Part shown: positions 3,998-19,496 of the stretch, piece by piece
Position numbering within the stretch: the first letter of the stretch is position 1
Layout of the letters: the number at the start of each line of letters is the position of its first letter
Source of the DNA: Terriglobales bacterium
GTDB lineage: Bacteria > Acidobacteriota > Terriglobia > Terriglobales > Acidobacteriaceae
Assembly (NCBI GenBank): GCA_025934025.1
Contig: JAICYU010000015.1
Span: 1 to 34,311, forward strand
Length of the DNA: 34,311 nt
Direction: 5' to 3'
The notes under the pieces: generated by a model
Seen by the model: the letters and a program-made list of their open reading frames with translations, nothing else
Databases searched by the model: none
Told to the model about the DNA's origin: nothing
Position numbers and translations under genes: made by a program

Positions 3998-4645
3998 CTA
4001 GTGGCAGCCCTGTCCATCTGCTTGGGCGCAACAACTTCGCCCTTCCAGAGCTTCTTTCGCCTCGTGGATTACGATCGGCAGGAGTGCAACTGCGGCGACT
4101 GGATCGGCCCAGGAAAGATGCCCGAAAGCGTTGAGCAATAGGCCGCCAAGCGCGATCCAGGCCATATATCCGCAAATCGAACTCTGCGCGGCATCGGCCC
4201 GCAAAGCAGTGCTGTTGGCTGTAGCCGCAAGCTGTCTCTTCCGGCGTGCCAGCCACGGCATTATCACCGCCGCAGCCACAAGAAGTGCGATGCCGGCGTA
4301 ACTTGGCCGCGGCTTCGTCCCCGCTGCGGCAAGCGTATAGAGCGACGCGGCTGCGATGAAAACACCGAGCGCAATCAGCAGCCAGCCCGTAACTCTCGTC
4401 GCGATGATCTCTGCGGTTTCCCGAGAACTGCGGAATCTCCAAAGGACCGCAGCGGCCGACAGCAGTTCGATTGCGCTGTCCCCGCCAAATGCGGCAAGGG
4501 CCACACTGCGGGCGCGAACGGCTGCAAACAGCGCGACGGCAACTTCCACCGACATCCACGCCATCGTGAACCACTGAAGGCGGTTTATGGCGCTGCGGAT
4601 CGTTGCCGTGGCTTGAGTGCCGCCATTTTGTTCCGATTCAAGCAT
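3998..4645 (-). CDS. CDF-like cation transporter, small, with altered metal site
   Basis: A 215-residue membrane protein with about six predicted helices, resembling the transmembrane part of cation diffusion facilitators. Helix 2 carries GGDSAIELLS, equivalent to the DxxxD pair of YiiP/FieF but with Glu second. Helix 5 carries RADAAQSS, where the canonical HxxxD pattern is not visible. The usual cytoplasmic C-terminal domain is missing and is replaced by a tail, RSCCAQADGQGCH, with three Cys and one His. Its ATG overlaps the end of cusA by 8 bases, so the two are co-translated as the last genes of the copper efflux operon. This supports a metal-export role, probably moving metal from cytoplasm to periplasm. 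The substrate is unknown; copper is inferred from context only. Confidence 0.8.
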   Translation of the reverse strand: MLESEQNGGTQATATIRSAINRLQWFTMAWMSVEVAVALFAAVRARSVALAAFGGDSAIELLSAAAVLWRFRSSRETAEIIATRVTGWLLIALGVFIAAASLYTLAAAGTKPRPSYAGIALLVAAAVIMPWLARRKRQLAATANSTALRADAAQSSICGYMAWIALGGLLLNAFGHLSWADPVAAVALLPIVIHEAKEALEGRSCCAQADGQGCH

Positions 4646-7600
4646 GATGTGCCCAGGCTGCTTCGTTCGTCTTCATTAGTGTTCCGCGCCTGAGCGCCCG
4701 CTCTTTCATCAGCACAAAAAAAACAGGCACCAGGATGAGAACGTTGATGGTTGAAGTAATCATTCCGCCGACGATGGGCGCCGCGATCGGCTTCATCACA
4801 TCGGAGCCGATGCCGGTCTCCCACAAAATCGGAATCAAGCTAGCCAGCACAGCGCAGACCGTCATCAATTTCGGACGAAGCCTTTGCACCGCGCCCTCAA
4901 TGGCGGCTTCTGTGACATCGGTCTTGGTAAGCTGCCGCCCTGAAGCAATTCGGCGGTCCAACGCCTCGTGAAGGTAGACCACCATCACCACTCCGGTTTC
5001 CACCGCAATTCCAAACAGAGCGATATAGCCCACCCACACTGCGACACTGAAGTTGTAACCCAGAATCCATTGCAGAATCAGGCCGCCGCTCAGGGCATAT
5101 ACCGTTGGGACAATCAGGACGAACGCCTCTGTGACGGAGTGAAATACCACAAAGAGCAGCAGGAAGATGATGAAAAAGACGATCGGCATGATGAGTTTGA
5201 ATCGCTGTTTGGCACGCAGCTCAAATTCGTACTCGCCCGACCACTGATAGGTGTATCCCGCCGGCAGCTTGAGTTTATGCGCCAAAGTTTGTGAGGCCTG
5301 CTGCACGAAGCCGCCATAATCTTTGGTGTTCAGGTCAATGTAGATGTAGCCGGTCAGTTGTCCGTCTTCGTCGCGGATCATGGCGGGCCCGCGCGAAAAG
5401 GAAATCGTTGCGACTTGTTCGATCGGAATCTGCGCGCCGGAAGGTGTAGCGATGAGAACGCGGCGCAGTTCATCCACATTGTCGCGGAAGTCACGCAAAT
5501 AGCGGACGTTCATGGGGTAGCGTTCACGTCCCTCCACGTTCTCCGCAACATTCATGCCGCCGATGCCGGAGGAAACCGCCTGCTGGACATCGGTTATCGT
5601 TAGTCCGTACTTAGCGGCTTCTGGCCGGTTCACGTCTACATTCACGTAGAAGCCTTGCGCTACGCGCTCCGCGAATACCGACCGCACTTGAGACAAGCCG
5701 GAGAGCGCCTGCTGGATCTGCGATCCGAGCTGCTGAATGCCATCGAGAGACGTGCCCTGGATCTTCATGCCCACAGGTGTTTTGATTCCGGTCAGCGCCA
5801 TATCCAAACGATTCTCGACCGGCATGGTCCAGGTGTTGGTCAGGCCCGGGAACTGGAGCTTCTCGTCCATTTCGCGGATCAGTTTTTCGTAGGTCATCCC
5901 TGCACGCCACTGTGAGCGCGGTTTCAGCATGAGCGTAGTGTCATACATGTCCAGAGGAGCATTGTCGGTCGCGCTGTCGGAACGGCCAACCGCGCCGAAC
6001 ACGCTCGCCACTTCAGGAAACGAGCGCAGAACGCGGTCCTGTTCCTGCAAGAGCTGCGAGGCCTGAGTAATGCCGATTCCCGGAAGAGAAGTCGGCATGT
6101 ACAGTGATGAGCCTTCGTAGAGCGGCGGCATGAACTGGCTGCCCAAACGGAACATCAGCGGGAAAGTGACAATAAGAAAGAGCAAATTGATCAGGAGTGT
6201 TGTCTTTCGGTACTTGAGGCAGAGTCGAAGCGCCGGCAGATAGATGGCTTGAGTGATGCGCGAAATCGGATTCCTGGATTCCGGGCGTAGCTTCCCTTTG
6301 ACGAAGATCACCATGAGAACCGGGACCAGCGTGATTGCCAGCAGAGATGAGAAACCGACGGCGAGAGTCTTGGTCCAGGCCAGCGGCTTAAACATCCTTC
6401 CTTCCTGGGCTTCGAGCAAGAAGACCGGAATGAACGACACTACGATGATGAGCAGAGAAAAGAACAGCGCCGGCCCGACCTGCTTGGCGGCATCAATCAG
6501 AATACGGCGACGAAGTTTTTCACTGACTCTGGCTCGCTCCGCGGTTTCAACCGGCTCGTCGTAGCTCACGTGCTCCGCACCCGCGGTGCTGGCTGGGGCT
6601 GGAGGATGAGCAGGCAGCTCAGACAGATGACGGTACCCGTTCTCGACCATCACAATCGCGGCGTCTACAAGAACTCCAATCGCCAGCGCCAATCCGCCCA
6701 AGGACATGATGTTGGAGCTGACGTGGAGGTAATACATGGGAATGAATGAAGCGATCACCGCAATCGGCAGCGTGATAATCGGAATCAGAGCCGAGCGAAA
6801 GTGAAACAGGAACACAATAATTACCAGGCTGACAATGACGGCCTCTTCAATCAGGTCCCGTTGCAAGGTCGTGATCGAATCCTGAATTAAGCCGGCGCGG
6901 TCATATCCCGCGACCACTTCCACTCCCGGCGGCAGCGAACTCTTGATCTCCGCCAGCTTCTTCTTTACTCCGTCAATTACGGTCAATGCGTTCAGGCCAT
7001 AGCGCATTACAATAATGCCGCCAACGGTTTCACCTTCACCCTGCCACTCCGCCACACCTTCGCGAATATCTGGCCCGAATGAAACCGTACCCAGATCGCG
7101 AATCAGCACTGGCGTCCCGTTTTTCGCCTTGACCGGCACGTTCTCCAGATCAGCCAAAGACTTGAGATAGCCGAGGCCGCGAATGTAGTAGCGCGTTCCG
7201 CTCAACTCCAGCACACGCCCGCCAACCTCATTGGTGCTGGACTTTACGCGATCAATCACGGTGGATAGCGGGATGCCATACGCCAGCAGTTTGTTGGGAT
7301 CGAGCTGGACCTGGTACTGCTTCACGAAGCCGCCAATGCTGGCGACTTCGGCAACGCCGGGAACAGTTTCGAGCTGGTAACGCAAATGCCAGTCTTGCAG
7401 GCTGCGCAAATCGGCCAGGCTGTACCGGTGCGTGTGGTCCACCAGCGCGTACTCGTAAACCCAGCCTGCGCCGGTTGCATCCGGCCCAATCGCCGGGTGA
7501 ACATTGGCGGGCAAACGGCCCTGGATGGTCTGAAGATATTCCAGAACGCGCGAGCGCGCCCAATACATGTCCGTGCCGTCCTCGAAGACTACGAACACAT

Positions 7601-7874
7601 ACGAATCGTTGAACATAGTCTGCTCGCGCACCGCCTTCACCTGAGGCGCGGCCAGCAATGCGGTGACGATTGGGTATGTGACCTGATCTTCAATGATGTT
7701 GGGCGGCTCGCCCTCCCAACTCGTGTGAATAATGACCTGCACGTCGGAGATGTCCGGCAGTGCGTCCAGCGGAATGCGCTGTAGCGACCAGATGCCCGCT
7801 ATCACCAGCAGGAAGGTTCCGGTGAATACCAGGAAGCGGTTGCGCGCGCACCATTCGATGATCCAATTAATCAC
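4638..7874 (-). CDS. cusA: CusA-type heavy-metal RND efflux pump (Cu+/Ag+)
   Basis: The 1078-residue product is a full-length HME-family RND transporter, the proton-driven inner-membrane part of a tripartite pump spanning both membranes. The N-terminus has the family hallmark SWEGEPPNIIEDQVTYPI. Transmembrane helix 4 reads AIGVLVDAAIVMVEN, with Asp404 and Glu411 at the positions of the E. coli CusA proton-relay residues. The three periplasmic methionines that bind Cu+/Ag+ in E. coli CusA (573, 623, 672) are matched by Met593 (SLYMP), Met643 (PLDMY) and Met692 (RLDMA), each offset by 20. This favours monovalent copper/silver over the divalent-metal CzcA type. It starts with GTG one base after the cusB stop, with GGAGGG upstream inside cusB, and overlaps the CDF gene at its 3' end. 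Confidence 0.96.
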   Translation of the reverse strand: MINWIIEWCARNRFLVFTGTFLLVIAGIWSLQRIPLDALPDISDVQVIIHTSWEGEPPNIIEDQVTYPIVTALLAAPQVKAVREQTMFNDSYVFVVFEDGTDMYWARSRVLEYLQTIQGRLPANVHPAIGPDATGAGWVYEYALVDHTHRYSLADLRSLQDWHLRYQLETVPGVAEVASIGGFVKQYQVQLDPNKLLAYGIPLSTVIDRVKSSTNEVGGRVLELSGTRYYIRGLGYLKSLADLENVPVKAKNGTPVLIRDLGTVSFGPDIREGVAEWQGEGETVGGIIVMRYGLNALTVIDGVKKKLAEIKSSLPPGVEVVAGYDRAGLIQDSITTLQRDLIEEAVIVSLVIIVFLFHFRSALIPIITLPIAVIASFIPMYYLHVSSNIMSLGGLALAIGVLVDAAIVMVENGYRHLSELPAHPPAPASTAGAEHVSYDEPVETAERARVSEKLRRRILIDAAKQVGPALFFSLLIIVVSFIPVFLLEAQEGRMFKPLAWTKTLAVGFSSLLAITLVPVLMVIFVKGKLRPESRNPISRITQAIYLPALRLCLKYRKTTLLINLLFLIVTFPLMFRLGSQFMPPLYEGSSLYMPTSLPGIGITQASQLLQEQDRVLRSFPEVASVFGAVGRSDSATDNAPLDMYDTTLMLKPRSQWRAGMTYEKLIREMDEKLQFPGLTNTWTMPVENRLDMALTGIKTPVGMKIQGTSLDGIQQLGSQIQQALSGLSQVRSVFAERVAQGFYVNVDVNRPEAAKYGLTITDVQQAVSSGIGGMNVAENVEGRERYPMNVRYLRDFRDNVDELRRVLIATPSGAQIPIEQVATISFSRGPAMIRDEDGQLTGYIYIDLNTKDYGGFVQQASQTLAHKLKLPAGYTYQWSGEYEFELRAKQRFKLIMPIVFFIIFLLLFVVFHSVTEAFVLIVPTVYALSGGLILQWILGYNFSVAVWVGYIALFGIAVETGVVMVVYLHEALDRRIASGRQLTKTDVTEAAIEGAVQRLRPKLMTVCAVLASLIPILWETGIGSDVMKPIAAPIVGGMITSTINVLILVPVFFVLMKERALRRGTLMKTNEAAWAHHA

Positions 7875-7875
7875 G

Positions 7876-9426
7876 CTACATCCCTCCCGTGGCGTTCACC
7901 GAGAGCTGCTTGCTCACGATCACGGTCCCGTTCTGGCGGGCGACAATGGTGACTTGCCAGGTGCCACCTGATCCCAGGTCACCCTTGCCTTCATATATGC
8001 CATTGCCTTTGTCGGTGAGATCAACCGTGTTTTTCATCGCTGACATCCCCATGGCCGGCATCGCAGGCATGAAGAACGTGACGTTCACCTGCGCGCCGCT
8101 CACGGGAGCACCATTGGCGCCAGTGAGCTTTACCCGGAAGATGTTGCTGCCCTTTTTCGGCGGCGAGGGATCGGTCGTGAGTTCAGCGTTGGCCTGCGGA
8201 GCGCCTGCCGGCCGGTTCATGGCTGCAGCCGCGCCCGCGCCTGGAGGCGGCGGAACGAACGCGCCCGCAGCAGCTTGCAATTGCGCTTCAGAATCAATCA
8301 GGAAGTTGGCGGAAGTAACAATCGAGTCGCCCTGCTTCAAGCCCTTCAGCACGACGTAGCCATCCCCGACGCGCGGTCCCACTTCGATCTGGCGCGGCTC
8401 CAGGTAGCCATTCCCGTGATTCACAAAAGCAAGCTGTCGCGTGCCCGACTGCAACACTGACGAAGCGGGAATCACAAGCTGCGTTCCGATCGGCACAGTC
8501 AAGCTCACATTGACGTACATTCCGGGCTTGAGCAGCAGCCTCGGATTATCGAATACAAGTCGCACCCGCACAGTGCGTGTGGCCGCATCAACCTGCGGCA
8601 GAATCTGCTGCACGCGCCCGCGAAACTGACGGCCAGGGTAGGCATCCACTGAGACGGCTGCGAGATCTCTGGGTTTCAGACGCCCGACATCGGTTTGAAA
8701 AACTTGCGCATAAACCCAGACTTGCGAGAGATCGGCAATCGTGTAGAGCCTGGTTTCGGGCTGTACAAACTGGTTGGGCAGCGCATTGCGTTCCGTGATG
8801 TAGCCGGAGACCGGCGAAGCAAACGTGACATCACGCCGGATTTCTCCGGTCTTTTCAAGACTCGCGATCTCGCTGTCTGGTACGTTCCACTGCCGCAATC
8901 GCTGGCGGGCCGCATCCAGCAGCCAATCGGCCTCATTCGCAGCGTGGCCGGTCTGACTTTGCGCCAGAGTTTGCCTGTTCTTGAGCGCCAGCAGGAACTC
9001 CTGCTCCGTGCTGACCAGGTCCTGGCTGTAAATCGTAAATAGCGGTTGACCTTTGCGGACGTACTGGTAGGTTGCATCCGCGAACACTTTCTGAATCCAG
9101 CCAGGAAAGCGAGTTTGCACATAGGCGAGCCGCTCCTCGTTGACCTCGACGTTGCCAGTGACGCGCACCTCATCCTTCACCGGTTCCCGCCTGACTTGGG
9201 CGAATTTCACGCCAATGCTTTGCAATCGCTGTGGCGAGAGCTGCACCGCAGACAAATTCGGAGCAGCGCTTTCAGACGGCTCGGCTGCGGATTCAGCGGC
9301 AACCGAATTCGCTTGCTGAGCGGATATTGATTGTCCTGTTCGCTTCTGCACCCAGAAATAAATGAGTCCGGCGGCGAGAGCCGCTGCTATCACGGCTGTC
9401 GCGAAAAAGGCCTTGCGGTAGTTCAT
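7876..9426 (-). CDS. cusB: CusB-type periplasmic adaptor with FixH/YtkA-like C-terminal domain
   Basis: The 516-residue membrane-fusion protein has one N-terminal transmembrane helix (about residues 8-28), followed by the lipoyl, alpha-hairpin and beta-barrel regions of HlyD/CusB adaptors (about 60-390). A Pro/Ala linker (about 390-425) leads to an immunoglobulin-like domain of FixH/YtkA type (about 428-512). That domain holds a methionine-rich loop, FMPAMPAMGMSAMKN (residues 452-466), which looks suited to Cu+ binding. The N-terminal methionines used by E. coli CusB are absent, so the C-terminal loop may take over metal presentation to CusA; that is inference. The start ATG overlaps the cusC stop (ATGA), and cusA begins one base after its stop, indicating tight translational coupling. 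Confidence 0.93.
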   Translation of the reverse strand: MNYRKAFFATAVIAAALAAGLIYFWVQKRTGQSISAQQANSVAAESAAEPSESAAPNLSAVQLSPQRLQSIGVKFAQVRREPVKDEVRVTGNVEVNEERLAYVQTRFPGWIQKVFADATYQYVRKGQPLFTIYSQDLVSTEQEFLLALKNRQTLAQSQTGHAANEADWLLDAARQRLRQWNVPDSEIASLEKTGEIRRDVTFASPVSGYITERNALPNQFVQPETRLYTIADLSQVWVYAQVFQTDVGRLKPRDLAAVSVDAYPGRQFRGRVQQILPQVDAATRTVRVRLVFDNPRLLLKPGMYVNVSLTVPIGTQLVIPASSVLQSGTRQLAFVNHGNGYLEPRQIEVGPRVGDGYVVLKGLKQGDSIVTSANFLIDSEAQLQAAAGAFVPPPPGAGAAAAMNRPAGAPQANAELTTDPSPPKKGSNIFRVKLTGANGAPVSGAQVNVTFFMPAMPAMGMSAMKNTVDLTDKGNGIYEGKGDLGSGGTWQVTIVARQNGTVIVSKQLSVNATGGM

Positions 9427-10769
9427 TGCTTCACCTCCGCGCTGTTATCCACTGCGGATTGTCGCGGGATAGGCGCTCCGACCGCCAACTCCAACTCAGC
9501 CATATGCTGCTCAAACTCAGCGATTGCGCGGAAGTAGGCGTAATCCACATCCAGCGTGGTGTTCTGGCTGTCGAGCAGGTTGAGAATGTCCGTGCGGTCG
9601 TTTTCGTAAGCAATGACGGTGGAGTGCAATGTCGCATTCGCCTGAGGCCGCAACGAATTCTGGTAGAGATCAACCAGGCGCTTGGCCGAATTTGCCCGCA
9701 CCAGCGCCTCCTGAATTTCCCGGAACACAAAGAGCCGCGTTGCTTCAAACTCTGCTTGCCGTTCGCTAACCATCGCTTGCGCCTCGCTGATCTCCGAATC
9801 GTGTTTGCGCCGATTCAGCCAGGGCAGCGTGATCGAACCCTCAATCATGTAATTGTTCCGGAATTGCGACCCGCTCGGCATCAGCATGTACCCGGCGCTG
9901 GCGGAAAAGTCAGGCGTGTATTGCTTGCCAGCAAGTGCGACTTCGCCTTTCGCCTGCTTTATAGCGGCCATCGCTGCCGTCAGTTCAGGGCGATTTTGCA
10001 ACGCGAGTTGTTGAAGTTTCCCGGCAGCAGGAATTTCCGCCGGCGCGATGTATTGGCCGGCGACTTCAAGCGGCGAATCAGGACTGCGACCGAGCAGCGT
10101 ATTCAGCGTCGCGCGGCCCAGTTCCGCATCCTGTTCGAGCATCACCAGGTGCTCGATCAGCTTGGTTAAGGCGACCTGCGCCTTCAGCACGTCCTGCTGG
10201 GGCGTCTTTCCAACCGAATACTTGATTCGTGCCGCCTCGAACGCCTGACGCGCAATTGCTACCTGCTGATCGTGTACCCGGAACTCGTCACTGTTGCGCA
10301 AGAGGTCATAGAAAGACTTGCGGACCTCTGCTGAAATTTCTCGCTTCTTCGCTTCGAGTTCGGCTTTCACCACCGTGCCGGCATCGCCCGCGACCTGTGA
10401 GCGCAGCCACCGTTTCCCAGGTCCGGGAAAGCTCTGCCCCACCATGAACATGTTCATGGCGGCGTTGTAATTCCATGGCTGCGCCAGTGGCACCTGCCAG
10501 GAGCGGTATATCAAGGATGGATCGTCGAGCGCGCCCGCGCCTGAGACATGCGCCTCCGCTATCGCCACCTTGCGTGCAGCGACGCGAATTTCGGGATTCG
10601 CTTGCAACGCGATCTGTTCAGCTTGTTCCAGGCTGATAGGCGCCGCCGCCGGATTAGTGCGCGAATGCTGAGCCGGCAACAGGCTGAGCGCTGCCTCATA
10701 TGGATCATCCGCCGCAGCGAGCACCGCAGCAGCAAGACAAAGAAATACACATAGAAAAATGGCTTTCAT
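9423..10769 (-). CDS. cusC: CusC/TolC-family outer-membrane efflux protein
   Basis: The 448-residue product begins with a signal peptide (MKAIFLCVFLCLAAAVLAAA) and has the two repeated outer-membrane-efflux halves of the TolC family. These include ISLEQAEQIALQANPEI near the N-terminus and long coiled-coil helices (for example around KHDSEISEAQAMVSERQAEFEATR). It forms the trimeric channel completing the CusCBA pump. The start was set at the ATG at 10769-10767 because GGAGG lies four bases upstream and a signal peptide follows at once; the frame is open 20 codons further upstream but without support. I see no lipobox, unlike E. coli CusC. The 3' end overlaps cusB by 4 bases. Confidence 0.93.
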   Translation of the reverse strand: MKAIFLCVFLCLAAAVLAAADDPYEAALSLLPAQHSRTNPAAAPISLEQAEQIALQANPEIRVAARKVAIAEAHVSGAGALDDPSLIYRSWQVPLAQPWNYNAAMNMFMVGQSFPGPGKRWLRSQVAGDAGTVVKAELEAKKREISAEVRKSFYDLLRNSDEFRVHDQQVAIARQAFEAARIKYSVGKTPQQDVLKAQVALTKLIEHLVMLEQDAELGRATLNTLLGRSPDSPLEVAGQYIAPAEIPAAGKLQQLALQNRPELTAAMAAIKQAKGEVALAGKQYTPDFSASAGYMLMPSGSQFRNNYMIEGSITLPWLNRRKHDSEISEAQAMVSERQAEFEATRLFVFREIQEALVRANSAKRLVDLYQNSLRPQANATLHSTVIAYENDRTDILNLLDSQNTTLDVDYAYFRAIAEFEQHMAELELAVGAPIPRQSAVDNSAEVKQ

Positions 10770-10798
10770 CGTTCCTCCGCAAAAAAGGCGCCTGGAGA

Positions 10799-10818
10799 GG
10801 CACACCAAGGCGTGTGCC
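10799..10818 (-). promoter_or_regulatory. Hairpin plus U-tract between the leader gene and cusC
   Basis: Arms 10799-10805 (GGCACAC) and 10812-10818 (GTGTGCC) pair perfectly around a 6-base loop. Read on the minus strand the hairpin is followed, after TCTCCAGGCGCC, by six T residues just before the cusC ribosome site. This could partly terminate or process the transcript between the small Cys/Met protein and cusCBA. The U-tract is about 12 bases from the stem, so it is not a classical terminator. Confidence 0.35.
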
Positions 10819-10838
10819 CGAACGGACAAAAGCCAGCG

Positions 10839-11201
10839 CTAAATTCTCAAGATGGAAGAACTGCCGGGTGGGCTCTCAGGAGCCGGATGTAGCTGAAAGA
10901 AAGAAAACTCGCTTTTTGCCAGGGGAGGGTTTGCTAGTTCGACTACCGCTGCTGATGACGCAACCAGCGGCGTCATGTGTGTAGTCGGAACCTGCAACAT
11001 CGGGTCGGGCTGCCGCACTTCTGTCTGGCAGCACGAATGTGAACTCGGCATGTTCATGGAGCCGCACTGCTTTGCCATGTGCTTACAGCATTCGCGCTCC
11101 GCCTGGGTCATCTCGGCAGCAGAGGTGAGGCACGCCATAGCCGGATATCCGAACAGAACAATCAGGAGCAGAGTGCTCGCGAGTTTACGCAGGATTTTCA
11201 A
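10839..11201 (-). CDS. Small exported Cys/Met/His-rich protein heading the copper operon
   Basis: A 120-residue product with an N-terminal signal sequence (MKILRKLASTLLLIVLFGYP, then AMAC) and no family I recognise. The mature part holds a dense cluster of soft-metal ligands: Cys38-Cys39, His41, Met42, Cys46, Met49, Met51, His55 and Cys57-Cys58, with another Cys at 24. The rest is Pro/Ser-rich and probably disordered. The AMAC site could be a weak lipobox or a signal-peptidase I site. It is the first gene of the run into cusCBA (69 bases before cusC), so a periplasmic copper-binding or buffering role is inferred. The start is TTG at 11201; a later Met would lose the signal peptide. Confidence 0.75.
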   Translation of the reverse strand: MKILRKLASTLLLIVLFGYPAMACLTSAAEMTQAERECCKHMAKQCGSMNMPSSHSCCQTEVRQPDPMLQVPTTHMTPLVASSAAVVELANPPLAKSEFSFFQLHPAPESPPGSSSILRI

Positions 11202-11215
11202 GCTTCTGCTAGTTT

Positions 11216-11243
11216 ACTCCGGCCTTCACGCGGCCGGTAGTTA
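11216..11243. promoter_or_regulatory. Inverted repeat upstream of the copper operon
   Basis: Perfect arms CCGGCC (11219-11224) and GGCCGG (11232-11237) flank a 7-base spacer. Flanking ACT and AGT extend the symmetry with a one-base bulge. It lies 15-40 bases before the TTG of the first copper-operon gene, so it could be an operator in the promoter or a hairpin in the 5' untranslated region. No known CueR, CsoR or CopY box was recognised. Confidence 0.3.
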
Positions 11244-11407
11244 TGGCTTATGCCCTAGGTCACTGGAGTAGACAGACCCGAGGATTTGCTCTCAATGCAA
11301 GGGTCAGGGAGTTTTTTGCCAACAAGCCCGCACTAAGATAACTTGGAGTGAACTGCTAGTCCCGCTCCGCCATTGACGCGAGTTAGCCAGAGTACTTTTG
11401 GCGGTTT

Positions 11408-11486
11408 AATTGCCGGGGGGGGGATTGCGAGATAAAATTACGAGCTGTGGGAGTGTGTCACGCCAATTGCCGGGGGGAATTGCGCG
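11408..11486. repeat. Short direct repeat with long G-tracts
   Basis: Two copies of AATTGCC-Gn-(A)ATTGCG lie in the divergent intergenic region: 11408-11429 with nine G and 11465-11484 with six G. They start 57 bases apart, and the second lies about 85 bases before the winged-helix gene start. Together with 11216-11243 they are the only structure I see in the 367-base gap between the divergent copper and KaiC clusters. The G9 run is also a place where read errors are likely. Confidence 0.45.
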
Positions 11487-11568
11487 TCTGCAACACATAC
11501 ATTTTTCCTCTAATATCACTCTTCATCTTGCGCAGCCCAGGACTAACGAGCACGTGTAGGGTGCCGTC

Positions 11569-12003
11569 ATGACCGATAAGCCTTTCAGCAACCGTCAGCA
11601 GCTTGAAGAAATCAGGCGGCTGCTCGCCGGAACTCCAGTCATAAAAGCCGCCTGCGATCTCGATCTGCTGGTATTTCTCCACCGCCATCCGCGAACGCTG
11701 CTAACCAATGAGCAATTGGCCGCTTTTGTGGGATATGAGATGAAACAAGTCGCCAAGGCGATTGACGCGTTCATTGACGCCGGATTTCTGGAGCGCACGC
11801 AAAATCCCAACCACGCCGCGCGCATGTACCTTCTCGTGCTGAACGGCCCGCAGGGCGGAGGACTGAAGAGGTTCTTGCAACTGGCTTCTACGCGGCAGGG
11901 GAGGCGGGAGATTCTCGAGCTTCTTGGTCCCGGGCGACCTCAAACCGAGCCGGTTGACATTTCCAAGAGCAAAGCAAAGCGGAGGCTTCATGCCATCGCC
12001 TGA
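11569..12003 (+). CDS. Small winged-helix protein upstream of the KaiC-like gene
   Basis: A 144-residue soluble protein. Residues about 10-95 look like a winged helix: LLAGTPVIKAACDLDLLVFLHRHP, then LTNEQLAAFVG as helix 2, KQVAKAIDAFIDAGFLER as the recognition helix region, and ARMYLLVL as the wing strand. The C-terminal third is basic (KSKAKRRLH) and lacks a recognisable domain. It starts at ATG 11569 with AGGGTG upstream and ends 23 bases before the KaiC-like gene, so the two are probably co-transcribed. It may be the output or DNA-binding partner of the KaiC/kinase cluster. It is also divergent from the copper operon and could act there. The function is not established. Confidence 0.75.
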   Translation: MTDKPFSNRQQLEEIRRLLAGTPVIKAACDLDLLVFLHRHPRTLLTNEQLAAFVGYEMKQVAKAIDAFIDAGFLERTQNPNHAARMYLLVLNGPQGGGLKRFLQLASTRQGRREILELLGPGRPQTEPVDISKSKAKRRLHAIA

Positions 12004-12026
12004 TTTTCCAAGCACGGAGGGCTTCT

Positions 12027-13559
12027 ATGGCTGAACGCGATCTGGTCAAGACCGGCATTGCCGGACTGGACGACATTCTGTCCGGCGGCATTCCCCGCGG
12101 CAACGTGATCCTGGTGGAAGGCGCAATCGGATGTGGCAAGACCACCATGGGCGTGGAGTTCATATACCGGGGCGCCAGCCAGTTCGATGAGCCCGGCGTT
12201 GTCGTCGTCTTCGAGGTGTCGCCGGACAAGCTCATGCGCGACGCCTTGGGGTTTGGCTGGGACCTGGCCGAGCTGGAGCGGCAGGAACGGCTGAAAATCG
12301 TCTTCACCACCCGCGAAGTTTTGCGGCAGGAGCTACAGCAGGCGGACAGTGTGCTGCTGGAAGAAGCGGCCAAAATCGGTGCGCGGCGCATTTTCATTGA
12401 TGGCGTGGCCCGGCTGGTGGGCGGCAACGGCACGCCAGAGTCACGCTCCGCCTTCCATGTGCTCACTGAGGGCTTGCAGCGCGAAAATCTCACCGCGCTT
12501 CTGGCTGTGGAAGCGTCGTCGCTTAACGGGCATGGGGTCGCATCGCTGCCTGAGGAGTCCATTGCCGATAGCGTGATCCGGCTCAAGATGGAGGACAATC
12601 AGCGCGCCATCTTCCGTTCTCTGGAAGTCGTGAAATCGCGCGGGCAGGATTTTCAGATGGGACGCCACACGTTTCGCATCATTGACCGGCACGGAATTCA
12701 GGTGTACCGGCGCGTCCAGGCGCCTCGGAAAGCGAGCCGCGACCTTGCCGCGGCTTTTGATCCCAAAACGCGAGTTCCCACCGGCACTCCCGGTCTCGAT
12801 GAGATGACGAATGGCGGCTACTTCATCGGCAGCACTACCGTGGTGGCGGGAATCTCCGGCGTAGGCAAGAGCGTGATGGGATTGCAATACATTGCGGAAG
12901 GTGCGCGGCGGGGCGAGCGCAGCCTGATGCTCTCGCTGGACGAGCAGGTGGAACAGATCATGCGCAACGCCGTCACCATCGGCATTGATTTAGAAGGACA
13001 AATGAAAAGCGGCATGGTTCGCGTGGAATATGAACCGCCGCAGGAAATCGAAGTTGATGTGCATTTTCATCACATCGAAGAACTAGTAAAGGAGTTCAAG
13101 CCCAAGCGGGTGCTGATTGACAGCCTCTCCACCTATGGCTCAAGCCTCGGCCCTGGCGGCCGGGTGTTTCGCGACTTCTTCCATGCTCTGGTCGCGCTTA
13201 TGAAAGAATCCAAGATTGCAGCGGTTTATAACCATGAAAATCCTGAGATGCTGGGGATGAATTCGATGATGGGCGACTTCGGCATGAGCTCTCTGGTGGA
13301 CAACATCGTGCTGATGAACTGGGTTGAGTTGGGAGACGCCTTCCGCCTGGGAATGACCATTGCGAAGATGCGGGCGAACCCAGTGGACCGGATCACCCGC
13401 GAATGCGAGATTATGAATGGCAAAGGCATGCGCGTGCTGCCACGGGCGCTGCCTGTGCCCAGGCTGCCATTCTCCTCGTACAGGGGTCTCGTATCGCGCT
13501 CGCCGGAGCGCAGCAGGCGGACGGTCGAGGAGGTTGCTCCTGATGGATCCAGCGAATAA
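12027..13559 (+). CDS. KaiC-like double-domain RecA-fold ATPase
   Basis: A 510-residue protein with two tandem KaiC domains. CI (about residues 7-230) has Walker A GAIGCGKTT (32-40); CII (about 249-472) has GISGVGKSV (275-283). In cyanobacterial KaiC each P-loop is followed by a catalytic Glu pair. Here CI reads FEV (Glu63, then Val64) and CII reads Asp305-Glu306. The region aligning with the KaiC autophosphorylation pair Ser431/Thr432 reads GMSSLVDNIVL, giving Ser421/Ser422. Residues after about 473 are a Pro/Arg/Ser-rich tail. No kaiA or kaiB is present, so a clock role should not be assumed; non-cyanobacterial KaiC proteins act as signalling hubs. AGCACGGAGGG upstream provides the ribosome site. 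The 3' end overlaps the following kinase gene by 17 bases. Confidence 0.92.
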   Translation: MAERDLVKTGIAGLDDILSGGIPRGNVILVEGAIGCGKTTMGVEFIYRGASQFDEPGVVVVFEVSPDKLMRDALGFGWDLAELERQERLKIVFTTREVLRQELQQADSVLLEEAAKIGARRIFIDGVARLVGGNGTPESRSAFHVLTEGLQRENLTALLAVEASSLNGHGVASLPEESIADSVIRLKMEDNQRAIFRSLEVVKSRGQDFQMGRHTFRIIDRHGIQVYRRVQAPRKASRDLAAAFDPKTRVPTGTPGLDEMTNGGYFIGSTTVVAGISGVGKSVMGLQYIAEGARRGERSLMLSLDEQVEQIMRNAVTIGIDLEGQMKSGMVRVEYEPPQEIEVDVHFHHIEELVKEFKPKRVLIDSLSTYGSSLGPGGRVFRDFFHALVALMKESKIAAVYNHENPEMLGMNSMMGDFGMSSLVDNIVLMNWVELGDAFRLGMTIAKMRANPVDRITRECEIMNGKGMRVLPRALPVPRLPFSSYRGLVSRSPERSRRTVEEVAPDGSSE

Positions 13560-14895
13560 CGGGCTCTTCAGCTCCGACCTTTGGCTGCGCGCGCTCGAAA
13601 GTTACGCCTCAGGCACCCACCTGACTGTGAAATTGTTTGACGCGGAAGAGCGCGTGGTCTTCGGCCCGGTGAACCCCACGCCCTTGTTCCAGTTGTTCGA
13701 GCAAAAGGGATACGATCCCGGCATCCTGGCGGAATGCGCGCGCCGCTGCCTGGCACAAACTGATAGCCGGCCTGCGGTGATGGTGTCTCAAGTATCCGGA
13801 TTGACCGCGATCGGCGCCTCGCTGGTGCTGGAAGGCAAGATCGTGGGCGCCGCTGTGGCAGGGTACGCCTTTGTGGACTTCTCCCAGTTATCTGAGGTGC
13901 AGCGCCTGGCGAAGGACGCGGGCATTCAATTTGAGCGGGTCTGGCGGGTGGCCAGAGAGCAGAAGCCCATACCGCAGCACCGGTTAATGCTCAATGGAGA
14001 GCTGTTGCAAGTTCTGGGAGACGCCCTGCTGCGAGAGAATTACCGCACCCGGCAATACGAAGAGGCGGTATTGAAACTGAAAGAGGCGGCAAAGGAAAAA
14101 GACGAGACCCACCGGGAGTTAAGAGAACACGAAGAGCGGCTGCACAAAGCAGAGAAAATGGCAGCGGCCGGTCAGCTTGCCGCCGCGATGGCGCACGAAA
14201 TCAACAATCCGCTGGCGGCAGTCACGAATTCGCTGTACCTGCTGGAAACGCAGACGAATCTGGACCAGACAGCGCGTCTCATGGTTACCACGGCGGCCGC
14301 GGAACTTGCCCGTGTCTCGCGCATCGTGAAGCAGAGTCTTTCATATTACCGGGTGGGAACAGCTCCCCGCGATCTCGATCTGGGCGGGATCGTGCAAGAA
14401 TCTCTGCAAATCTTCAGCGAAAAACTGCGGCGCATTGGCATTGAGGTAAAGACCAGTATTCAAGGCGGCGCGGCGATACTTGGATTCCCTGACGAACTTC
14501 GGCAGGTGATTGACAACCTGCTGCTCAATGCCATGGAAGCTATGCCGTCCGGCGGGGGGCTAAGCATTTCCGTGCGCCGTTCGTTTGACTGGACGCATCG
14601 CCGCCGCAAAGGAGATCACAAGGGCGTGCGGCTCACCATTGCAGATTCAGGATCTGGCATCTCCAAAGAGAATAGCCGTAAAATCTTTGAGCCGTTCTTC
14701 ACCACAAAATTAGATAAGGGAACCGGACTGGGACTGTGGATTTTGCAGGGCATCATCGCCAAACACGAAGGCTCCATGAAGGTGCGAAGTTCCGACGCCG
14801 CCGGTAAAAGTGGAACTGTCATCTCCATATTTCTGCCTTCGCACTCCCGCGCGCTGGAGAAGGCCAAGGCGCCAAATTCCGCATCGGTTGCTTGA
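13543..14895 (+). CDS. Soluble histidine kinase with PocR-like sensor domain
   Basis: The 450-residue product has an N-terminal sensor region (about residues 10-135) resembling PocR-type ligand domains, including ECARRCL and GASLVLEGKIVGAAVAGYAF. A charged coiled coil follows (about 165-205), then HisKA with the H-box AMAHEINNPL (His218) and a HATPase domain with VIDNLLLNAMEAM, DSGSGI, EPFFTTK and GTGLGL. No transmembrane helix is seen, so it senses a cytoplasmic signal. The start at ATG 13543 is chosen because GAGGAGG ends 9 bases upstream; it overlaps the KaiC-like gene by 17 bases, implying translational coupling. The only receiver nearby is the degenerate one on the opposite strand, so its true target is unknown. 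The PocR assignment is tentative. Confidence 0.9.
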   Translation: MDPANNGLFSSDLWLRALESYASGTHLTVKLFDAEERVVFGPVNPTPLFQLFEQKGYDPGILAECARRCLAQTDSRPAVMVSQVSGLTAIGASLVLEGKIVGAAVAGYAFVDFSQLSEVQRLAKDAGIQFERVWRVAREQKPIPQHRLMLNGELLQVLGDALLRENYRTRQYEEAVLKLKEAAKEKDETHRELREHEERLHKAEKMAAAGQLAAAMAHEINNPLAAVTNSLYLLETQTNLDQTARLMVTTAAAELARVSRIVKQSLSYYRVGTAPRDLDLGGIVQESLQIFSEKLRRIGIEVKTSIQGGAAILGFPDELRQVIDNLLLNAMEAMPSGGGLSISVRRSFDWTHRRRKGDHKGVRLTIADSGSGISKENSRKIFEPFFTTKLDKGTGLGLWILQGIIAKHEGSMKVRSSDAAGKSGTVISIFLPSHSRALEKAKAPNSASVA

Positions 14896-14949
14896 TTTTT
14901 CCTCCGCGACCCTACCCGTTGTGACAGTTTGTGAAAACCCTCGCCCACA

Positions 14950-15345
14950 TCATCCGAACAGCCTTTGCAGCAGCTCAAGCAGTTCTTTCGGCTCGTAAGA
15001 AGAAAGCTGGTGGTCAACTCCTTTGCAGTCAAAGTTATGTCCGGCAGGGGAAATCAAGATGACGGGCACCTTTGCCGCGATAGACTTCATCTGCCTCACG
15101 ATTTCCGAGCATTCAATATCTCGGACATCCACATTCAAGACCACGGCGTCAACGTTGGGAAATCTGCGCAGTGTGGCGATGGATTCGGCGCCGCTGTAAC
15201 AGGTAATCACATTGAATTTGGCGGTTTCGAGTACCAGCTTGCGCGATGAGATGCTGCCCGGATGGTCCGGATCAACCACGATGAAAGTCGGCCGAAATAC
15301 CTTCGCGTCTTGCTTCTTCAATATCTGCCGTTCTCCCTCCCGCAT
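14950..15345 (-). CDS. Degenerate response-regulator receiver domain
   Basis: A 131-residue stand-alone receiver-like protein. The fold signature is clear: FIVVDPDHPG at strand 1, VDAVVLNVDV at strand 3, VPVILISPAG at strand 4 and an ELLELLQRLFG end helix. The position that normally holds the phospho-acceptor Asp is Asn71, and the conserved Lys before the last helix is replaced (LSSYEPKELL, Ser116). The acidic pair is present as Asp25/Asp27. It therefore probably cannot be phosphorylated in the usual way and may act as a protein-binding pseudo-receiver. It converges with the KaiC-associated kinase (54-base gap) and lies 118 bases downstream of deoC. The exact start is uncertain; the ATG at 15345 lacks a good ribosome site. 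Confidence 0.8.
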   Translation of the reverse strand: MREGERQILKKQDAKVFRPTFIVVDPDHPGSISSRKLVLETAKFNVITCYSGAESIATLRRFPNVDAVVLNVDVRDIECSEIVRQMKSIAAKVPVILISPAGHNFDCKGVDHQLSSYEPKELLELLQRLFG

Positions 15346-17216: not shown

Positions 17217-17459
17217 GAAGGCACGCTTCGATCATTATACAAAGGGCCGCAGCGGGGAATGGAGGTTGCGCCGCTCTTGACGGCGAAGCGTCGCGTAGAC
17301 GGGAGTCTCTGCGCTCCAACGCGACGTTGGCGTTCGCTTTTTGGGCTGTTCCCGCGGTGCCCGGGGGGAGGCAGGTTACCAAAGTCACTGTACCAATATT
17401 AAGGCATTCTTATCCCATGTCAGAGTGTGCTACTTTTCAGGCTACCCCCGACCGAAATT

Positions 17460-19496
17460 ATGGCCAGTCTTACAGATAAGCTTCCCACGATCCTTGTATT
17501 AGGTGTGCTGGTGGGAATTTTCATCGCCCTGCGGCGCCACGTGAAGTCGCCGAGGCTGAATCTCTGGATCGCGGCCTGGGGACTGATTTTCATCCATTTC
17601 TGTGTTCAACTTTTCGAACCGGACGACGGCAATCTTTCACCGCTGCTGTTTATCCTGGACCAGGGTTCTTTGCAACTCTCCGCTCTTTTCTTTATCGGTT
17701 CTCTTACATCATTTCTTGAGAGCAGGAAACTCACGGCCGCTCTGCTGACCGTCACCGGCCTTCCGGTATTGGGCTACGTGTTCGCTGAAGCCTACGATTG
17801 CCACTGGCGCAGCGTCTACATCGTGTGCAGCGCTCTGTTGTTCTTAGGAACTCCGCTGTTTGTTGTCCTGGCGCGCAAGCCGAGCTTTAAATCTTCGATC
17901 TGGATCCCGTTTGTCGCTGGTGCGGGCTGCATCAGCATTGCTCATGCGTGGCGTCATGAATACGACTTTGGTTTTTTCGCTGTGCTCACGCTGGCTTTTG
18001 GCATGCCAGGATTTTTGTTTTTCCGGCGTTATACGCGCTGGTCGCCAGGAGTGATCACCAGCGGTGGAGGGTTTCTGCTGTGGGCCACCGTGTTTCCGCT
18101 GGGCCAGTGGCTCTATCTCAATCATCCCAACTTGCATATCAATCCTGAGCTTTTCAATACCCCAAAATTGTTTGTGGCCTTCGGGATGATCGTGACGCTG
18201 CTGGAAGAAAAATCAGAGTATCTGAAAGCAGCGAACCGGCGCGAGCATGAGATCAGCAATCAGATGCAGCGCTTTGCCAGCATCACTTCCCGCTTGCTCA
18301 ATGGAAGCAACCTGATCGGATTGTGCCAGGAAATTGCCCAGGCGTTGAACGAGAGCAGTACGTTTCGCAGGGTGCTGGTTCTTCTGAGCAATGATGGAAA
18401 AACACTGTTCGTTGCCGGACATGCGGGAGCAGACAGCGCCACGCTGGCCCTGGTGCAGCAGAATTGCGCCAAGGTGTGGCGTCTTGAAAGTCTTCCGGGG
18501 ATTTATCAGCGAGGAGGGAGGTTGGGAGAAACCTCAGTCCTGGTGCGCGCGCCGTTTCTCAAGGGCTACGCGACGGTGTCCAGCGATATCGAATATCCGC
18601 AGGACTGCACCTGGCAGAACGGTGACAAAGTGTTTATTCCCCTGCAATCCGCGCGCGGCGCGATCGTTGGCTGCATTTCCATGGACGAGCCGCGAGATCC
18701 CGCCCGTGTCAATGCCGACGAGCTTTCGAATATCGAGATGCTGGCGGGCGACCTTGCCGTCACAGTGGACAATGCCGCGCTCCACCGGCAACTGGTGCGC
18801 TCGGAAAAGCTGGCGGCGATGGGACAACTGGTTGCGGGCGTGGCGCACGAGCTGAACAACCCGCTGACCTCGATCGTCGGCTACTCGGAGCTGATGGCGG
18901 ATGAAATCCAGGAGCCGGCATCGCGTCAGAAGCTGGAGAAGATGATGCGCGAAGCCCAGCGTATGCGACGCATCATCGAGAACCTGCTGCGGTTTGCGCG
19001 GCAAAACAGCGTGGAGAAAAAATCCGCCAACCTGGAAGCCATGCTGAATGACGTGCTGTCATTGCGTGAATACCACATTCGCAGCAACGGCGTGGCGGTG
19101 CAGATTGAAGTTGAGCCACAACTGCCGCAGGTGGCGGTGGACGAAGACCAGTTCAAGCAGATCCTGCTCAATCTGCTCAACAATGCCATTGATGCCCTCG
19201 AGGGCGGACGCGAGAAGCGCATTCACATTCATGCCTCTCGCCGCGATGACCGAGTCGTGCTGCATTTTGACGACACCGGGCCGGGCTTCACCGAGCCGCA
19301 TCGCGTCTTCGATCCTTTCTACACCACCAAACCGGTGGGCAAGGGAACAGGCCTGGGACTCAGCATCTGCTATGGAATTGTGAAAGAGCACGGCGGAGAA
19401 ATCCATGCAGTCAACCTTCAGCCTCGTGGCGCGCGTGTCGCCCTGGAGTTGCCGGTGCAGGCTGCCGTAGCGCTCGAGAACGTGGCTACGGTTTAA
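17460..19496 (+). CDS. Membrane histidine kinase with 7TM-type sensor and GAF domain
   Basis: The 678-residue product begins with about seven hydrophobic segments over residues 8-250, a 7TM-like sensor. A GAF domain follows (about 280-440), then HisKA with GVAHELNNPL (His463) and HATPase with LLNLLNNAIDAL, DDTGPGF, DPFYTTK and GTGLGLSICYG. It is a complete orphan sensor kinase at the inner membrane; no response regulator with an intact Asp is in the window. The ATG at 17460 is preferred over an in-frame GTG at 17427, though the ribosome site is weak for both. A perfect 6-bp hairpin (17316-17330) lies between the divergent tRNA-Val and this gene. The ligand is unknown. Confidence 0.9.
   Translation: MASLTDKLPTILVLGVLVGIFIALRRHVKSPRLNLWIAAWGLIFIHFCVQLFEPDDGNLSPLLFILDQGSLQLSALFFIGSLTSFLESRKLTAALLTVTGLPVLGYVFAEAYDCHWRSVYIVCSALLFLGTPLFVVLARKPSFKSSIWIPFVAGAGCISIAHAWRHEYDFGFFAVLTLAFGMPGFLFFRRYTRWSPGVITSGGGFLLWATVFPLGQWLYLNHPNLHINPELFNTPKLFVAFGMIVTLLEEKSEYLKAANRREHEISNQMQRFASITSRLLNGSNLIGLCQEIAQALNESSTFRRVLVLLSNDGKTLFVAGHAGADSATLALVQQNCAKVWRLESLPGIYQRGGRLGETSVLVRAPFLKGYATVSSDIEYPQDCTWQNGDKVFIPLQSARGAIVGCISMDEPRDPARVNADELSNIEMLAGDLAVTVDNAALHRQLVRSEKLAAMGQLVAGVAHELNNPLTSIVGYSELMADEIQEPASRQKLEKMMREAQRMRRIIENLLRFARQNSVEKKSANLEAMLNDVLSLREYHIRSNGVAVQIEVEPQLPQVAVDEDQFKQILLNLLNNAIDALEGGREKRIHIHASRRDDRVVLHFDDTGPGFTEPHRVFDPFYTTKPVGKGTGLGLSICYGIVKEHGGEIHAVNLQPRGARVALELPVQAAVALENVATV

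Follow-up and report, generated by a model that had tools for sequence, protein, structure and literature searches.

The partners of KaiC outside cyanobacteria are largely unknown, and a locus in which a KaiC-like ATPase gene lies among other putative signalling genes raises the question of which of these neighbours the ATPase works with. We analysed a stretch of 34,311 nt (contig JAICYU010000015.1, positions 1–34,311), referred to below as the window. All four open reading frames listed in a preliminary description were confirmed at their coordinates: a 144-residue winged-helix protein (wH; 11569–12003, plus strand), a KaiC-like double RecA-fold ATPase (12027–13559, plus strand), a histidine kinase with an N-terminal PocR-type sensor domain (PocR–HK; 13543–14895, plus strand) and a convergent receiver-like protein (14950–15345, minus strand). 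The reported spacing also holds, in that the wH and KaiC genes are separated by 23 nt and the KaiC and kinase genes overlap by 17 nt if the kinase starts at the ATG at 13543. The longest open reading frame of the kinase gene begins upstream of this codon, at 13417; we take 13543 to be the right start, as had been proposed, because the proteins of relatives begin at the corresponding residue and several loci (L014, L015 and L019) keep the 17-nt overlap. The host genome (3.66 Mb, 97% complete) encodes one KaiC of this type, and KaiB, previously noted as missing, is absent from the entire 97%-complete genome.

The arrangement wH–KaiC–PocR was found in 27 further loci in Acidobacteriota, Nitrospirota and Gemmatimonadota, with KaiC proteins 44–83% identical; ten of the 27 were collected only once the pattern had been defined, and three (L045, L046 and L047, which has a 46% KaiC homologue) came from scans of relatives and of the phylum. 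A scan of the KaiC protein against 84,980 species genomes returned 14 loci at 70–83% KaiC identity, from Acidobacteriota, Nitrospira, Gemmatimonadota and one 'Cyanobacteria' metagenome-assembled genome (MAG), and many of the module loci come from MAGs. Of 26 loci that could be tested, 24 have wH immediately before KaiC, and a PocR protein comes immediately after KaiC in 25 of 26. In the ten later loci, wH is present in eight of nine that were testable and PocR is directly downstream in nine; the tenth, L088, has its PocR–HK gene adjacent but divergent, on the other side of KaiC. The gap between wH and KaiC is 14–34 nt in most loci. KaiC and PocR overlap by 4–20 nt in the clade of the window, and the gaps of 3–21 nt belong mostly to a sister clade that has no overlap and mostly a gap of 3–8 nt. 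Because the same order and near-identical spacing recur in many loci with differing flanks, the arrangement of the three plus-strand genes is far beyond chance. The wH–KaiC–kinase module of the preliminary description is thereby borne out in its conserved order, its tight translational spacing and its lack of KaiB.

The module is rare and patchy: KaiC at E ≤ 1e-110 occurs in 4 of 396 phylum genomes and 9 of 399 class genomes, and the module is absent from eight other genomes of the host's genus. In the phylum sample, wH is restricted to genomes carrying module-type KaiC; it is missing in Variovorax and in L096. In L025, a DDE transposase (4703–7317) lies where wH and the 5′ end of KaiC would be expected, and this locus is a decayed module copy that has lost both. 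A single open frame in L023 (1083–2900) joins wH and KaiC but lacks the last part of wH and the first KaiC residues; it is either a genuine gene fusion or a product of misassembly. The contig of L026 (JAIEMQ010000034.1) ends shortly after KaiC; it belongs to the MAG titled Cyanobacteria, which is probably mislabelled, given that G262, the genome that matches it, falls in the phylum of the window. A second KaiC, 28% identical, lies just beyond the module in L016 (10850–13471), after two small, mutually related proteins that belong to no recognized family; we rejected it as a module copy because it lacks the module partners and shares only this low identity.

The surroundings of the module vary. 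In the window, a divergent RND efflux cluster of CusA/CusB/CusC type (4638–11201, minus strand) is preceded by a small exported protein rich in Cys, His and Met (10839–11201), and both are probably metal-related. Efflux genes are also found near L018–L020 and L022, but other neighbourhoods differ by locus, and a link to metal efflux was rejected as a property of the module. A second, multi-domain histidine kinase (17427–19496, plus strand) is encoded at a distance of 2.5 kb, in the same orientation.

Does the receiver belong to this unit? It had been described as a degenerate receiver and as the fourth member of the module, acting as a non-phosphorylated adaptor. The degeneracy is confirmed: the protein scores 29.5 bits, just under the Pfam cut-off of 30.2, and has Asn at the phospho-Asp position. 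Membership could be argued from its position adjoining the module in the host genome and from the receivers linked to the module in most relatives, which are fused to the kinase in L021, L022, L023, L045, L046, L086, L088, L089, L093, L094 and L096 (split in L020) and lie beside it in L016 (convergent), L017 and L025; in L018, L019 and L027 there is no receiver downstream. However, the aligned receivers of these relatives are canonical, mostly fused and not orthologous to that of the window, no homologue of which was found in the module loci. Its homologues, 31–52% identical, occur mostly in genomes without the module; in G049 the module is on contig C286 and the receiver homologue is on another contig, and in one relative a homologue lies near HPRT, which is the other-side neighbour of the window's receiver. 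Since no homologue is found beside the module, the family occurs in module-less genomes and the relatives use canonical receivers, we place this gene outside the module. A receiver is a usual module output, but the one in the window lies there by chance or, at most, was recruited recently. The proposed gene order thus stands for three genes, which recur in 27 loci, whereas the set of four including the receiver was found only in the host genome, and a four-gene module with an Asp-less adaptor, already largely refuted by gene context, is very improbable. The phospho-Asp is absent in five of six homologues of the receiver. This stand-alone family (window 14950–15345; L049–L054), present in about 10% of related genomes, has a conserved RKLVLETAKFNVITAYS stretch and lacks the phospho-Asp in most members.

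The third gene of the module encodes a composite protein in which Pfam recognizes PocR (31.1 bits; cut-off 23.9), HisKA (38 bits) and HATPase_c (78 bits). The PocR-type sensor domain (PF10114) occupies residues 1–168 (13543–14046, plus strand) and is the part conserved with KaiC; the kinase core (14110–14895, plus strand) has HisKA with a MAHEINNPL H-box and HATPase_c, without a fused receiver. All 31 invariant residues of the protein lie within residues 14–160, in the PocR part. With the window as the reference, the complete loci at 70% or more are 70–83% identical in KaiC, 49–84% in PocR (63–84% within the window's clade) and 23–31% in the kinase core; over all module relatives compared, the core is 23–32% identical. 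The low value extends to L014, in which PocR is 84% identical to that of the window and the kinase is of a different class (HisKA_3). In an all-against-all comparison of the kinase cores, L025 and the sister clade have one HisKA(-REC) core in common, 50–64% identical, and no fewer than four further arrangements stand behind PocR in the window's clade: the window's own HisKA, PAS-HisKA_3 in L014 and L016 (68%), the HisKA of L017, L018 and L019 (37–46%), in some cases joined by PAS or GAF, and the HisKA_3-REC of Nitrospira. The window's core is 44–50% identical to a resident kinase family in genomes of the host's bacterial family, and a resident kinase elsewhere in the host genome (G000:C208) is 49% identical to it.

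The simplest reading of these comparisons is that kinase cores have been exchanged repeatedly behind a fixed PocR, and in the host genome with a resident kinase. Because PocR co-varies with KaiC and the kinase core is exchanged, the fixed partnership, as far as sequence conservation indicates, is KaiC–PocR(–wH) and the output is exchangeable, an indication that KaiC communicates with the sensor domain and not with any particular kinase. Co-conservation of PocR and KaiC could reflect operon co-transfer alone; against this, co-transfer would not account for the lack of conservation in the kinase part of the PocR gene. The idea that the gene overlap fixes the stoichiometry between KaiC and the kinase finds no support: the kinase core is the exchanged part, PocR is the conserved partner and the sister clade has no overlap.

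The distribution of the module also bears on how it came to be shared among phyla. The Nitrospira copies are nested inside an otherwise Acidobacteriota clade of the KaiC tree, the KaiC proteins of the window and Nitrospira are 79% identical, and the flanking genes vary from locus to locus; for these reasons, wH–KaiC–PocR is best read as having spread horizontally as a unit. The wH, KaiC and PocR trees are broadly alike, those of wH and PocR being compatible with the KaiC tree and poorly resolved. Carriage of the module by plasmids was considered and rejected, as PLSDB gave no close copy, only Variovorax relatives at 40%. On the Variovorax plasmids, a KaiC that is 40% identical and ends in the same A-loop tail is encoded by a gene overlapping that of a PocR–kinase, without wH; the N termini of their kinases match the module PocR profile at 68–79 bits, and Pfam recognizes PocR in one of the two. 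Variovorax belongs, by general taxonomy, to the same bacterial family as Ramlibacter, which is discussed below. We tentatively raise the possibility that wH–KaiC–PocR is a portable KaiC 'front end' that moves between phyla and plugs into local kinases, these being replaced behind a KaiC-reading PocR. If so, one ATPase or timer state would be wired to different local outputs, and PocR would be a domain that binds KaiC and is not related to the KaiB fold found in SasA.

What could the KaiC-like protein contribute? It contains the KaiC domain PF06745 twice (298 bits; CI, 12045–12713; CII, 12774–13445; both plus strand) and aligns over its full length with cyanobacterial KaiC structures. Both Walker A motifs (GAIGCGKTT and GISGVGKSV) are intact. 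The counterparts of S431 and T432, two adjacent Ser within an MSSLVDN motif, are Ser-Ser in L047 and in all relatives at least 70% identical, and thus by alignment phosphorylatable residues, a pattern described for KaiC2 proteins (PMC5520375). The C-terminal segment PFSSYRGLVSRSPER (13467–13511, plus strand) is the counterpart of the A-loop in alignments with 8zn5, 8jon and 7dy1: its FSxYxGLxSRxPxR stretch aligns with the A-loop region (SFRNFEGIISGTPTR in 7dy1), and F482, S483, L488, R491, P493 and R495 are invariant in 15 sequences, including Variovorax. A reading of the tail as a novel docking motif was rejected, since it aligns with this known KaiC element. Gly takes the place of T426, and the catalytic Glu pairs are replaced by Glu-Val in CI and Asp-Glu in CII; the second catalytic Glu of CI is replaced by Val, Thr or Ile, and the first of CII by Asp. 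Because of these altered pairs, ATPase and kinase activities may differ from those of KaiC. The protein scores 216.6 bits against the clock-KaiC equivalog TIGR02655 (NCBIfam), below its cut-off of 546.25.

Two P-loops, the Ser-Ser pair and a conserved A-loop are what would be expected of a timer, or 'hourglass', in which KaiC slowly autophosphorylates and dephosphorylates without KaiA and KaiB and drives the kinase rhythmically or as an interval timer. Such an hourglass has been proposed for Ramlibacter on the basis of kaiC with a dedicated kinase and no kaiA or kaiB (PMC3164672), and a timer has been shown in part for Rhodopseudomonas. The Gly at the T426 position, the altered catalytic Glu pairs and the absence of KaiB argue against it here, and we regard a timer as unlikely.

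The winged-helix assignment of the first gene was upheld by an AF2 model (14 sequences; pLDDT 79) that has the helix and wing order of MarR. The protein scores 22.8 bits against Pfam MarR, under the cut-off of 24.6, and the top 50 PDB matches of the model are all of MarR type and weak (TM about 0.47; best E 1.6e-3). Most wH homologues are basic by isoelectric point, a feature suggestive of DNA binding, which is plausible for wH. A consensus scan of 11200–11600 found a single σ70-like candidate site (TTGCCG-17-TAAAAT; 11410–11438, plus strand), the spacer of which holds a nine-G run (11415–11423) that is the only G or C run of at least seven in the window by homopolymer count. Runs of 6–11 G lie upstream of the module in the window (11408–11484), L022, L024, L026 and L027, about 60 nt before the wH start in the latter four and, for L026, L027 and the window, inside the predicted σ70 spacer. 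Such runs could conceivably make the promoter phase-variable; a poly-G spacer was rejected as a module feature, being present in 5 of 15 loci against 0.5 expected but in none of nine later loci. A 13-mer, AATTGCCGGGGGG, is also repeated in the window, the genome containing just two exact copies of it, and both Nitrospira copies of the module have a tandem 7-mer, CCGATCT, directly upstream of wH (L020, just before 5569; L021, 1–42).

MarR-type proteins typically autoregulate their operons, which would suit a ligand-gated two-component system in which PocR senses a small metabolite, KaiC serves as a scaffold or ATP-dependent remodeller and does no more than assemble the kinase, and wH keeps the operon repressed as long as the ligand is missing. 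The PocR model (AF2; pLDDT 88.7) has weak fold matches to IclR, LOV, DhaR, CodY and GAF/PAS, and those to the ligand-binding domains of IclR, DhaR, CodY and GAF/PAS point the same way, as does the prediction, given in the title of a reference in PMC5847659, that PocR and MEDS sense simple hydrocarbon derivatives. Against a ligand-gated system, the PocR model has no PDB match at E < 1e-3, and the upstream regions of wH share no operator-like inverted repeat common to the loci, for which reason a candidate wH operator was also rejected. We consider this explanation rather doubtful.

On balance, we think it probable that the locus is a horizontally spread wH–KaiC–PocR signalling unit coupled to interchangeable histidine kinases. 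In such a unit, the KaiC hexamer, in a state that depends on nucleotide or phosphorylation, would bind PocR, perhaps through the A-loop at the CII end, and KaiC-bound PocR would gate the kinase that happens to follow it in the same protein; a small molecule may be a further ligand of PocR. Phosphate would go from the kinase to a receiver; most relatives have one fused to the kinase or next to it, and the host would have to encode it elsewhere. wH, presumably co-translated with KaiC, would most likely regulate its own operon or provide a second output, at the level of transcription. PocR is singled out as the putative KaiC-reading element because evolution kept KaiC, wH and PocR fixed while the kinase was swapped. 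The module yields a small, directly testable protein pair, and its natural kinase chimeras bear on whether kinases can read the state of KaiC without KaiB or a SasA domain, a long-standing question about KaiC systems that lack KaiA and KaiB.

How far is such a unit known? A kaiC–kinase pair of Ramlibacter was described by De Luca et al. 2011 (PMC3164672). In that paper, in which the hourglass was suggested, a kinase gene whose product has a conserved N-terminal domain comes systematically after kaiC, and kaiA and kaiB are missing; Rta_04330 and Rta_04340 of Ramlibacter tataouinensis are co-transcribed, and the N-terminal domain was proposed to bind KaiC. The window has this gene order, with the gene of a kinase that has a conserved N-terminal domain directly after kaiC and no kaiB in the genome, and like Ramlibacter it has a double-domain KaiC with the kinase gene directly downstream. 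Unlike Ramlibacter, in which the phosphosites are mostly SY, TY or SF (PMC3164672), the window has Ser-Ser, its N-terminal domain is recognized as PocR, wH precedes kaiC and the kinase core has been swapped. Given PMC3164672 and the Variovorax plasmid pairs, the KaiC–kinase pairing is known in kind.

With the cyanobacterial KaiABC–SasA–RpaA clock, the module shares the KaiC fold, two nucleotide sites, the A-loop and a KaiC-linked kinase as output; by contrast, the window has no KaiB and no recognized KaiB-like SasA domain, PocR stands in its place and the catalytic Glu residues are altered. Among bacteria other than cyanobacteria, Rhodopseudomonas and Rhodobacter likewise encode KaiC together with a histidine kinase in a single operon, but their kaiC–kaiB–PAS/HK operon has kaiB and a PAS kinase, and the accessible part of PMC4794148 mentions neither wH nor PocR. 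Archaeal KaiC-like ATPases, proposed to be signal-transduction hubs (Makarova et al. 2017, cited in PMC5847659), are combined with many signalling partners as well; their fusion partners are others (REC, HalOD1 and inactivated KaiC forms), whereas the module of the window is bacterial and has near-invariant partners. The literature searched, with subscription papers mostly outside its scope, yielded no description of a wH partner, of PocR as a KaiC-linked domain or of kinase swapping, and a full-text search for PocR and KaiC returned one relevant paper, in which the two are simply listed. Set against these known systems, what is new here is the wH partner, the PocR assignment, the swapping of kinases and the spread of the unit across phyla.
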